Source: Gemmatimonas aurantiaca T-27
Lineage (GTDB): Bacteria > Gemmatimonadota > Gemmatimonadetes > Gemmatimonadales > Gemmatimonadaceae
NCBI RefSeq assembly: GCF_000010305.1
Contig: NC_012489.1
Location: forward strand, 2,425,646 to 2,489,645
Direction of reading: 5' to 3'
Length of the DNA stretch: 64,000 nucleotides
In this document: one piece after another, positions 31,850-34,936 of the stretch
Layout of the letters: each line of letters starts with the position of its first letter
How positions within the stretch are numbered: the stretch's first letter is position 1
The notes under the pieces: generated by a model
Databases searched by the model: none
What the model saw: only the letters and a program-made list of their open reading frames with translations
What the model was told of the DNA's origin: nothing
Program-made: the position numbers and the translations under genes

Positions 31850-32224
31850 ATGACTGACTACCACTTCCCCCCCAGAGAGCTCGCCGTCATGGCCGTGCTG
31901 TGGCGACTCGGTTCCGCCACGGTCGCCGATGTACGCTCCGGCCTCGACGAAGACCTGGCCTACACCTCGGTGCTCTCGGCCCTGCAGACGCTCGAGGACA
32001 AGGGCTACGTACGCCACGAACCTGAAGGGCGCGCCTATCGCTACTTCCCCACCGTCGCCGCCGAACGTGCCGGTGACAGCGCCATCAGCCGCATTCGCGA
32101 CGCCATCTTTCAGGGGTCGTCCGAGCGGATGTTTGCGCAACTGGTCAGCGACCGCAAACTGAGTCGCGCGGAACTCGAGCGCATGCACGCGATGCTCGCC
32201 GAACGGCTGGGAGACGAATCATGA
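31850..32224 (+). CDS. BlaI/MecI-family transcriptional repressor
   Basis: The 124-residue repressor has the BlaI winged helix (about 1-75; ELAVMAVLWRLGSATVADVRSGL, then AYTSVLSALQTLEDKGYVRHE) and a C-terminal dimer helix (about 80-124). In BlaI/MecI the partner sensor M56 protease triggers its cleavage. The M56 gene follows and its ATG overlaps this stop by 4 nt. No beta-lactamase gene is in the window, so the regulon is unknown. The pair probably controls itself through the dyad at 31810-31828. Confidence 0.9.
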   Translation: MTDYHFPPRELAVMAVLWRLGSATVADVRSGLDEDLAYTSVLSALQTLEDKGYVRHEPEGRAYRYFPTVAAERAGDSAISRIRDAIFQGSSERMFAQLVSDRKLSRAELERMHAMLAERLGDES

Positions 32225-33750
32225 TGACGCTCTCACAGACCGCCGGACTCGTGGCAGCATGGGCTGGCACCAGCGCGATCGTGGGCGCGGTGTTGTTGCT
32301 GCTCGCACTCGCGGCGCAACCACTGGCCCGCAAGGCACTGCCCTCGCGACTGGTGTGGGCCACCAGCCTGGCCCTGACGCTGCTGGTGACGATCGGACTG
32401 CCGCTGCGGCAAGCAGACAATGCACCGGCATCCGGATCAACGACGAACCTGTCGTTGGTTGAACGTCCGGACGAGGCCACCGCATCGCTCACTTGGAGCG
32501 AGCGGGCCATGCGCGCGACACAATCGGCCGCGCGTTCCGCCGAAACCACCTTGCAAACGGCCGCCACGTGGAGCGCCGGGCGCGCATCACGTGCGCCGAT
32601 CGCTGTACAGTGGGCGCTGGTGTTGGCCTGGCCCGTCGCCTCGCTCACCCTGCTCGTGGTCTTCGGATTCAGCTATCGGCGTCAATCACGCGTGCTCCGT
32701 GACGCAACCCGCGTGAGCCTGCACGGTGTGCCGGTACATGTCTGTGCAGTCAGTGGCCCGGTGGTCTTTGGTGTGATGGCCCCACGCATCGCCGTGCCCG
32801 AGTGGTTGCTCTCCCGCGAGCGCGAAGAACAGGCGTTGGTCGTGCGGCACGAACAGTCGCACATCGAAGCCCGCGACCCGCTCCTGTTGCTGGCGGCATG
32901 TGGCACCGCGATCCTGCTGCCCTGGAATCTCGCGGTGTGGTACATGCTGTCCCGCTTGCGCCTCGCCATCGAGCTCGATTGTGACGCCCGCGTGCTGGCA
33001 CACGGAGTGTCCGCGCGCAGCTACGGCAAACTGCTCATTGATCTCTCCGCCGAGCCTTCGATGCTCGGCAACCCGGCCGCGATGCCGATGTCGGCAACGG
33101 CTTTCTCGTATCGCGCTTCCCACCTCGAACGGAGACTCCGTACCATGACCGCACGCACGACCAGGTTCCTCGTCCTCCGCCGCCTGTCCGTTGTGGGACT
33201 CGGGGCCGTGGGCGCGCTCGCCGCCTGTGGCACCGAACTGCCAACCGCGGCGGAGTTGCAAGCCATGGATGTCGCGAAAGCCGAGCAGCAGATCGGTCGC
33301 GTCGTGACGCTCGATGAAGCCTCCGCCGAGTATTACATCGATGGCAAGCGTGTCGACCGGGATGAAGCCACGGGGCTCAGCGCCGACCGCATCGCCACCA
33401 TCGATGTGCGCAAGCAGGACGGCAAGCAGCAGATTTTCGTGGTCCGTTCAGATTCTGCGGCCCGGGCTTCCGGTCAGACGTCCCAGATCCGCCTTCGTCG
33501 TCCAGACTCATTGGGCCTGATCGTCGCCGACCGTCCCACCGCCGCGCCTGGGAACGGTTTTGCGACGGGGAACCGGAAGCCGTTCGACGGCATCGTCATC
33601 CTGAACGGTAAGCGCAGCACCGAAACCGCCCTCAGCAAGCTCGATCCCAGCACCATCGAAAGCGTGGAGATCGTGAAGGGTCAGGCCGCGATCGCACAGT
33701 ACGGTGCCGATGGCGCCAACGGCGTGATTCGCGTGCTCACGAAGAAGTAG
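32221..33750 (+). CDS. M56 (BlaR1-like) membrane peptidase with TonB-plug-like C-terminus
   Basis: The 509-residue protein has four N-terminal membrane spans (about 11-33, 44-62, 129-150, 222-244), the zinc site HEQSH (210-214) plus ELDCD (E ~251), and a fifth span near 325-340. The last part is not the usual penicillin-sensor domain of BlaR1. Instead it ends with STIESVEIVKGQAAIAQYGA followed by DGANGVIRVLTKK, which mirrors the plug loop of TonB-dependent receptors (compare VKGPSAATLYGTDAANGVIL in the SusC protein here). M56 peptidases with plug-like tails are known in Bacteroidota; the tail's role is unresolved. It forms an operon with the BlaI repressor. Confidence 0.88.
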   Translation: MMTLSQTAGLVAAWAGTSAIVGAVLLLLALAAQPLARKALPSRLVWATSLALTLLVTIGLPLRQADNAPASGSTTNLSLVERPDEATASLTWSERAMRATQSAARSAETTLQTAATWSAGRASRAPIAVQWALVLAWPVASLTLLVVFGFSYRRQSRVLRDATRVSLHGVPVHVCAVSGPVVFGVMAPRIAVPEWLLSREREEQALVVRHEQSHIEARDPLLLLAACGTAILLPWNLAVWYMLSRLRLAIELDCDARVLAHGVSARSYGKLLIDLSAEPSMLGNPAAMPMSATAFSYRASHLERRLRTMTARTTRFLVLRRLSVVGLGAVGALAACGTELPTAAELQAMDVAKAEQQIGRVVTLDEASAEYYIDGKRVDRDEATGLSADRIATIDVRKQDGKQQIFVVRSDSAARASGQTSQIRLRRPDSLGLIVADRPTAAPGNGFATGNRKPFDGIVILNGKRSTETALSKLDPSTIESVEIVKGQAAIAQYGADGANGVIRVLTKK

Positions 33751-33784: not shown

Positions 33785-34177
33785 TCAGATCGCGACGCGT
33801 TCGATATCGGTGCGTGTGAACTGATCGCCCGCACCGAGCACGGGCTCTCCCGTCGCTCCCGCCAGCGCGTAGGCAATGCAATCGCCAAATGTGAGACCAG
33901 CCGCATGGCGTCCTCGGCCATAGGTGCGGGCAGCTTCTCTCGCCCGGTGCGCATGGTCTTCCGTGAACGGCACCACCGTGACCTCGAGCTCCCGCAGCAA
34001 CGCATCGAGCTCCAGATCACTGCCACCGCGCCGCTCCCCCATGAGCACCATGGCCGCTTCGACCACCGTCGCCGCAGAAATGAGCCGCATGGGTGACCGC
34101 ATGATCGCCGTGTGCAATGCGGACGCCTCGGCCGTATTCCGCCAGAGTGCGACCAACGAAGACGTGGTCAGGATCAT
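33785..34177 (-). CDS. PIN-domain VapC-like toxin with altered first catalytic residue
   Basis: VapC toxins are Mg-dependent RNases. The 130-residue protein has the PIN fold of the family, with the conserved Glu in ISAATVVEAAMV (about 41), Asp in LTFGDCIAYALA (about 98) and Asp in VLGAGDQFTRTDI (about 117). The first invariant Asp, which normally gives MILDTSALVA, is Thr here (MILTTSSLVA, residue 4). The rest is intact with no frameshift, so this is either a catalytically weakened protein, a PIN variant, or an early step in decay. Its ATG overlaps the VapB stop (ATGA). It converges on the M56 gene. Confidence 0.85.
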   Translation of the reverse strand: MILTTSSLVALWRNTAEASALHTAIMRSPMRLISAATVVEAAMVLMGERRGGSDLELDALLRELEVTVVPFTEDHAHRAREAARTYGRGRHAAGLTFGDCIAYALAGATGEPVLGAGDQFTRTDIERVAI

Positions 34178-34449
34178 CGGGCCACCCCCTGATCGTCGTA
34201 TCCGATCACGGATTCGGTGGTGACGTCGCTGGCGGCCGCGCCTCCCGCGATGCGCTCCTGAATGCGTTGCACCCGAGACCAGGACCGCTCGACGGCTCCA
34301 AGCTTTCTCAGACGTTCACGCGTAAGTCTTTCACGGACAGCGTGTTGTATCGCGTCAGTGATGCTCTCTCCCGTCAGCTCGGCGAGTTCGCGCACAAGCT
34401 TTTCCGCTTCCGGACTCTTGATATTGATGGCCATTGAAGAAGTGTTCAA
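34174..34449 (-). CDS. VapB-like antitoxin
   Basis: The 91-residue protein opens with MAINIKSPEAEKLVRELAEL, then GESITDAIQHAVRERLTRERL, the pattern of Rv0623/VapB-type antitoxins with an N-terminal DNA-binding strand and helices. A C-terminal tail would wrap the toxin. A TTG start at 34449 has GGAAG 6 nt before it; the ATG at 34434 is where the conserved domain begins but has no ribosome-binding site. The gene is divergent from the small-protein operon at 34547 across about 100 bp. VapB usually represses its own promoter, which would lie in that region. Confidence 0.85.
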   Translation of the reverse strand: MNTSSMAINIKSPEAEKLVRELAELTGESITDAIQHAVRERLTRERLRKLGAVERSWSRVQRIQERIAGGAAASDVTTESVIGYDDQGVAR

Positions 34450-34509: not shown

Positions 34510-34538
34510 TTGACAACGGCGACCTTCGTGCCGAGACT
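34510..34538 (+). promoter_or_regulatory. Near-consensus promoter of a small-protein operon
   Basis: TTGACA (34510-34515), 17-nt spacer and GAGACT (34533-34538). It closely resembles the blaI promoter (same -35, same spacing, GATACT -10). The predicted transcription start falls at 34544-34547, at or next to the ATG of the following 41-codon gene, so its mRNA may be leaderless. Confidence 0.65.
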
Positions 34539-34546
34539 AGAAAAAG

Positions 34547-34672
34547 ATGAACGCGCCCACCATGTCCCCGACGCGACTTAGCCGGCCCCTTGCGGTCGTC
34601 GTAGCCATTCTGGTTACGACGATTCTTGTCGTACGCACCCCGGGAGAGCTGAGCCGCATCGTCGCCATGTGA
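34547..34672 (+). CDS. Small (41-aa) membrane protein
   Basis: I do not recognise this protein. It has 41 residues with a basic N-terminus (SPTRLSRP) and one hydrophobic helix (LAVVVAILVTTILVV), then a short polar tail, so it is probably an N-in single-span membrane peptide. It starts 9 nt after a near-consensus -10, without a Shine-Dalgarno; a leaderless start or initiation at the second ATG (34562) are options. The promoter, size and topology make it more likely real than chance. It could be a small membrane regulator or a type I toxin-like peptide (speculative). A hairpin-rich leader separates it from the next small gene. Confidence 0.5.
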   Translation: MNAPTMSPTRLSRPLAVVVAILVTTILVVRTPGELSRIVAM

Positions 34673-34682
34673 CGCCATCGCC

Positions 34683-34752
34683 GCCTCTCCCGATCACGTT
34701 CGGGAGGGGCGACCTGGTCGGAGTTTCCGGCAGGCCCCTCCCAGGAGGGGCC
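34683..34752 (+). promoter_or_regulatory. Attenuator-like leader with mutually exclusive hairpins
   Basis: Hairpin 1 pairs 34683-34693 with 34700-34710 (11 bp, one G-U). Hairpin 2 pairs 34733-34740 with 34745-34752 (8 bp, loop CCAG), followed by TTCTTC. The 3' arm of hairpin 1 (GGGAGGGGC, 34702-34710) is an exact complement of the segment GCCCCTCCC (34734-34742) that forms the 5' arm of hairpin 2, so only one arrangement can form at a time. CCTCC at 34737-34741 is also complementary to the Shine-Dalgarno at 34765-34769. This suggests attenuation or riboregulation of the next gene; it is inferred from sequence only. Confidence 0.45.
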
Positions 34753-34774
34753 TTCTTCATATCCGGAGGTTCCG

Positions 34775-34936
34775 ATGTTCATGCCATTCGATCGCACCAA
34801 ACAGCCGACCACCCGCAGTCACCAGCACGCCGAGTACCAGAAATCGCCGTTCGTGGAACGGGCACCACATGCCGCGGCACCGGCGGCCATGCGGGATCAT
34901 CCGGACTTTCGTGAACAGGCGGACGGTGCGCCGTGA
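34775..34936 (+). CDS. Small (53-aa) Pro/His/Ala-rich protein
   Basis: I do not recognise this protein. A perfect GGAGG (34765-34769) sits 5 nt before the ATG, the strongest ribosome-binding site in this part of the window. The 53-residue product starts MFMPFDRTKQPTTRSHQH, is soluble, and is rich in His, Pro and Ala with a net basic first half and an acidic tail (DHPDFREQADGAP). It has no membrane segment and no recognisable domain. It lies downstream of the small membrane gene and the hairpin leader, so its expression may depend on the hairpin choice. Confidence 0.55.
   Translation: MFMPFDRTKQPTTRSHQHAEYQKSPFVERAPHAAAPAAMRDHPDFREQADGAP

Follow-up and report, generated by a model that had tools for sequence, protein, structure and literature searches.

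A putative ilv attenuator without its operon precedes a predicted microprotein with an IlvN-like tail in Gemmatimonas aurantiaca T-27

Within a 64,000-nucleotide stretch of the Gemmatimonas aurantiaca T-27 genome (hereafter the window; the genome is a single contig of 4,636,964 bases) lies a compact unit of two small open reading frames, all features of which are on the plus strand. It opens with a promoter, TTGACA-N17-GAGACT, at 34510-34538 (TTGACA 34510-34515, GAGACT 34533-34538), which is recognised from its sequence, is predicted to be active and reads TTGAC[T]-N17-GANNCT in the orthologues (alignment of 15 loci). The first frame, sORF1 (34547-34672; 41 codons encoding 41 residues, MNAPTMSPTRLSRPLAVVVAILVTTILVVRTPGELSRIVAM), is identified from profile matches and codon rarity, and its ATG stands about 8 nt past the -10 element, so that the frame is probably leaderless. 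A structured leader then separates it from a Shine-Dalgarno sequence, GGAGG at 34765-34769 (GAGG or GGAG in orthologues), and from sORF2, a frame of 53 codons and 53 residues that starts with the ATG at 34775, ends at 34936 and is backed by 13 orthologues and purifying selection. The leader folds better than shuffled sequences (z = -5.9; none of 200 shuffles was as good). The gene 3' of sORF2 in the window is oppositely oriented, and no gene for branched-chain amino acid (BCAA) synthesis follows the leader. The original prediction had drawn the promoter abutting a 41-codon frame and a GGAGG-preceded 53-codon frame behind a hairpin leader, and both were found exactly at these coordinates.

This unannotated unit, with a promoter and structured leader as had been proposed, is evidently conserved in the genus and absent from the databases searched. 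Neither frame has a match in Pfam, NCBIfam or PADLOC, and an Rfam scan of the region gave chance matches only. The DNA at 34525-34794 is matched in 14 other genus members (E 1e-44 to 2e-13), and the copies of the module, which is present in about half of the 30 genus members, keep the promoter, the Shine-Dalgarno site, the hairpins and both frames. The sORF2 profile matches over most of its length in 14 of the 30; with that of sORF1, 16 genus members are recovered at E < 1e-13. Among 288 genomes of the order, clear sORF1 matches beyond the genus are confined to one other genus, two matches in further genera being weak, and no relatives of the module were found in the viral contigs searched. 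A second weak DNA match in the window genome, at 1436971, was rejected: it overlies an unrelated reading frame and has no leader features.

By its codons and its relatives, sORF1 is the leader peptide of a BCAA attenuator. Val, Leu and Ile account for 15 of its 41 codons (37%, against a background of 22%), mostly as the rare codons CTT, GTA, GTT and ATT; the rarity of its BCAA codons has a z of -4.8, and the 23 copies together range from -2.3 to -7.0. A run of Val/Leu/Ile codons with a preference for rare ones also occurs in 22 homologues of sORF1. Moreover, the same leader lies directly 5' of ilvB-ilvN-ilvC, which encode the acetolactate synthase large subunit, its small subunit and ketol-acid reductoisomerase, in five genomes (G005, G016, G021, G032 and G117). 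The anatomy common to 22 aligned copies is a Val/Leu/Ile-rich peptide and then hairpins in a set order, one inside the frame, one just past the stop codon and, ahead of the next start codon, a GC-rich one trailed by pyrimidines. Peptide, hairpins and codon bias are together what characterises ribosome-mediated ilv attenuators.

The hairpins add to this picture. Hairpin A (34595-34623), supported by covariation, amends the layout as first drawn, since it lies inside sORF1; it covers the Val-Val-Val-Ala-Ile-Leu-Val-Thr-Thr codons, and 7 of its 11 pairs are changed on both sides. Hairpin B (34682-34711), built of segments 2 and 3 directly 3' of the sORF1 stop and defined by its fold and by pairing across copies, is paired in 90.7% of cells with no two-sided changes; its candidate role is that of a pause or anti-antiterminator hairpin. 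Hairpin C, terminator-like in its predicted fold, comprises a 9-bp stem (34732-34753) followed by TTCTT (34732-34757 in all) and has two-sided changes in 4 of 10 pairs. Its stem is strong and GC-rich, its tail is TTCTTCAT and its U-tract is weak and short; a scan for consensus terminators did not call it. The strongest hairpin between the two frames looks like a terminator/antiterminator. Jointly, hairpins A, B and C exceed all slid controls and 500 of 500 shuffles, in paired cells as in covariation, the covariation signal coming mainly from A and C and none of it from B.

An alternative, antiterminator pairing (34702-34742) joins the 3' arm of hairpin B, GGGAGGGGC at 34702-34710, to the 5' arm of hairpin C, GCCCCTCCC at 34734-34742, and excludes both hairpins. 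It is paired in 92.8% of cells and has three two-sided pairs, and one shuffle in 500 attained its covariation score; hairpin B, hairpin C and this pairing are each more than 90% paired across the 22 copies and form a mutually exclusive set. Further upstream, segment 1 (CGGGAGAG, 34641-34648, at the end of sORF1) is complementary to segment 2 (CTCTCCCG, 34685-34692) and retains CGGGA in all 23 copies and CGGGAG in 21, in a reading frame that differs in the window genome. The pairing of the two segments is conserved with non-significant covariation, and segment 1 is a candidate partner of segment 2 when a ribosome stalls upstream. Under equilibrium folding, nearly all copies took the terminator form whichever state the ribosome was in, and no switch was reproduced; a switch would therefore need to be kinetic.

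The second frame is tied to the same pathway by its end. sORF2 is conserved at an N-terminal MFMxFDR and at a C-terminal D[FY]R[ED]QADGAP, the latter invariant, and comparison of profiles indicates that its C-terminus is homologous to the C-terminal tail of Gemmatimonadaceae IlvN. The sORF2 profile matches the IlvN C-terminus in G005, G016 and G021, 2.4 kb 3' of the leader; hhalign aligns the two tails with a probability of 96.9% (P 1.9e-10), and out of 200,000 random tails not one reached such a score. The earlier statement that neither peptide belongs to a known family stands for the databases searched and fails for this C-terminus. The tail is all that sORF2 has in common with IlvN. An origin of its N-terminus from the start of IlvB was rejected, the profile of the N-terminal half having no similarity to IlvB, and no source for that half was detectable. 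The AlphaFold model is of low confidence (pLDDT 63) and mostly unstructured with a short C-terminal helix, so that sORF2 is predicted to be a disordered microprotein. In the window genome, a search for QADG tails found sORF2 alone with one at its C-terminus. The IlvN tails of 25 loci (L085-L087, L105-L126), seen in full or in part, are nearly all of the aromatic-xx-QADG type ([FYW]xxQADG); one reads QGDG, a few are visible in part only, and the sequence around the motif is variable. This tail lies beyond the portion of IlvN that Pfam and solved structures cover (residues 160-183).

Substitutions in sORF2 point to a maintained protein. Its dN/dS is 0-0.18 in the closest pairs and 0.24-0.43 within the group of G017, G023 and G029; between G018 and G006 there are 12 synonymous and 2 non-synonymous differences (P 2e-7), and the pairs G017-G029 (0.24, P 1e-5) and G023-G029 (0.30, P 7e-5) come from genomes in which ilvN and ilvC were not found. 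Synonymous change is lower in sORF1 (pS 0.33) than in sORF2 (0.55), as one would predict for a sequence constrained in its codons and its RNA structure alike. By this pattern of change, sORF2 is under purifying selection at the protein level; with a dN/dS near 0.05-0.4 for sORF2 in close pairs and compensatory changes in the leader hairpin, the module is no dead remnant.

Searches of the window genome found no ilvB (E 0.001), ilvN (1e-8), ilvC (1e-10) or leuA (1e-50), and no leader 3' of ilvD. Nearly every genus member has ilvD, while only G005, G016 and G021 combine ilvB (at the strict family cut-off) with ilvN and ilvC; in G006, leuA lies at a contig edge, and the missing ilvBNC there may consequently be an assembly gap. 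In the window genome ilvD lies at G000:C1:1616590-1618200 (L096); nearly all members retain it despite missing ilvB, ilvC and mostly leuA. At the ilvD locus, G013 carries the leader with a partial ilvB, G007 the leader with a truncated IlvN that lacks the ACT domain, and G002 the leader with a 60-residue frame ending in SDFRTQADGCPHEDAA, in which the IlvN tail is retained; read side by side, these loci are intermediate steps in the loss of ilvBN. A counterpart of the promoter, TTGCGG-N17-GATGCT, lies within the 3' end of ilvD in G002 and G007 and also 5' of the leader in G032 and G117. At the loci L074 and L068, and likewise L065 and L066, this promoter-like element seems to lie within the final codons of ilvD.

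The window copy and its orthologues are found elsewhere, at a second locus with conserved synteny, where a BlaI/M56 gene pair precedes them wherever the contig reaches that far. The M56 gene of the window (32221-33750) encodes a BlaR1-type peptidase whose C-terminal domain is TonB plug-like, and it stands behind a BlaI-like gene. Four genomes (G005, G016, G021 and G013) have both the ilvD locus and the second locus, from which it follows that the second copy predates the loss of the operon in the others. The module copies at the second locus form one clade with moderate support (83/88). By synteny and phylogeny, then, the second-locus copy has a single origin within the genus and outlived the ilvBNC operon.

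Overall, the homology of both frames and the conserved alternative structures are established by comparison of the copies. The region is probably an orphan ilv attenuator that raises production of a disordered, IlvN-tailed microprotein under BCAA shortage. What we infer beyond that comparison is that ribosomes stall at BCAA codons, that antitermination follows, that sORF2 is induced and that its product has a target, and the course of events may be pictured as follows. A short transcript would start at or beside the sORF1 ATG. With Val, Leu and Ile ample, the ribosome would reach the stop codon, hairpins B and C would form, and transcription, or passage to sORF2, would end early. With charged tRNA-Val, tRNA-Leu or tRNA-Ile scarce, the ribosome would stall on the rare BCAA codons, segment 1 would capture segment 2, segment 3 would pair with the 5' arm of hairpin C, and sORF2 would be transcribed and translated. 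Its product may be a small, mostly disordered regulator that presents the IlvN-tail motif to the putative partner of that tail. In the window genome this partner cannot be IlvB, because IlvB is absent. A more tentative proposal, to which we give somewhat less than even credence, is that selection kept the attenuator after the operon was lost, and that it has become a starvation-signalling unit in amino-acid auxotrophs, in which it drives a microprotein that derives from the tail of the regulatory subunit of the lost enzyme and acts on a different partner.

Other readings of the same features deserve consideration. Hairpin C may control the translation of sORF2, not the end of transcription, making the unit a translational switch governed by the leader peptide. 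Its U-tract is weak next to that of a classical terminator, and in orthologues an outer stem, CTGGT...ACCAG, extends close to the GGAGG; however, this outer stem is poor in the window genome, and the layout is identical to that before ilvB in relatives. Given the weak U-tract and uncalled terminator, the fold that favours the terminator form and the non-significant covariation of the segments, the translational switch is a live alternative, although we consider it unlikely. The leader RNA or peptide could also be kept for its own sake and act in trans, with sORF2 secondary. The trp leader peptide sets a precedent (PMC7298713), sORF1 and the hairpins are the most conserved DNA, and both the leaderless start of sORF1 and its lower synonymous change relative to sORF2 would fit. 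Yet a cis-acting attenuator predicts low synonymous change as well, and a pure leader-RNA role would not need the protein-level selection on sORF2, which makes this reading distinctly improbable.

Decay is a further reading: the module could be what is left, without function, of an ilv operon that was translocated and internally deleted. The intermediates of ilvBN loss in G013, G007 and G002 and the lack of the pathway in the window genome speak for it. Against this, the frames are intact, base changes are compensatory, dN/dS is well below 1 in species without ilvBNC, and closed genomes conserve the module at one locus, so that a remnant appears very improbable. The original prediction had taken sORF1 for a membrane peptide and thought a toxin-antitoxin or stress module with sORF2 conceivable, a hydrophobic segment in sORF1 and the adjoining VapBC pair being suggestive. 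That hydrophobicity, however, results from the run of Val/Ile/Leu codons; the same peptide, with its rare BCAA codons and the overlapping covarying hairpin, is homologous to the leader peptides found 5' of ilvB; and neither frame matches a toxin or antitoxin family in Pfam, NCBIfam or PADLOC. In G000, G028, G006 and G013 the VapB/PIN pair (window 33785-34449) separates the M56 gene from the module, whereas VapBC is missing from the same syntenic locus in G029, G025, G021, G016, G005, G023 and G017 and is absent from most module loci; the pair is a separate insertion. A membrane peptide or toxin-antitoxin function is hardly credible on this evidence.

Attenuators are usually regarded as accessories of the operon downstream. 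The one described here has outlived its operon in several species, three closed genomes included, under purifying selection, with intermediates of the loss preserved in relatives. Since some of these species keep the operon and others lack it, they allow a direct test in nature of whether attenuator leaders do anything by themselves. Moreover, it draws attention to the conserved, unstudied tail of IlvN in Gemmatimonadaceae and points to a class of microproteins born from an enzyme operon via internal deletion. What is new is that an ilv leader lives on as an orphan alongside a microprotein that is based on the tail of IlvN; a literature search returned no description of such a combination, which is not proof of absence.

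Finally, the unit may be set beside known systems. The leader in the window is an ilv attenuator by descent from which one defining feature is missing, as it precedes no BCAA gene. Its closest counterparts are the ilvBNC leaders of G005, G016, G021, G032 and G117, whose peptide and hairpins are homologous to those of the window module; they differ in that a complete ilvB-ilvN-ilvC comes next and in a longer untranslated stretch before the leader frame, and within the genus they follow ilvD where checked, ilvD not being directly adjacent in G021. IlvN itself, with its PF22629 and PF10369 domains, shares with sORF2 the C-terminal tail D[FY]RxQADGAP, while both the ACT and the ALS_ss_C domain are missing from sORF2. 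The most thoroughly studied counterpart is in Corynebacterium glutamicum, where the ilvL leader of ilvBNC likewise encodes a Val/Leu/Ile-rich peptide, whose start is a single nucleotide away from +1; the three alternative hairpins after the peptide are an anti-antiterminator, an antiterminator and a terminator (PMC11857589). The likeness is one of layout, with no claim of sequence kinship: ilvL has 15 residues against 41 in the window and precedes ilvBNC, whereas the window copy precedes a 53-residue frame and no BCAA gene, and the covarying hairpin inside the leader frame sets the window module apart from ilvL. In Sinorhizobium meliloti, rnTrpL/peTrpL exemplifies an attenuator leader frame with roles beyond its own operon (PMC7298713); there trpL keeps its operon, whereas the window module has lost its operon and includes a second small protein.
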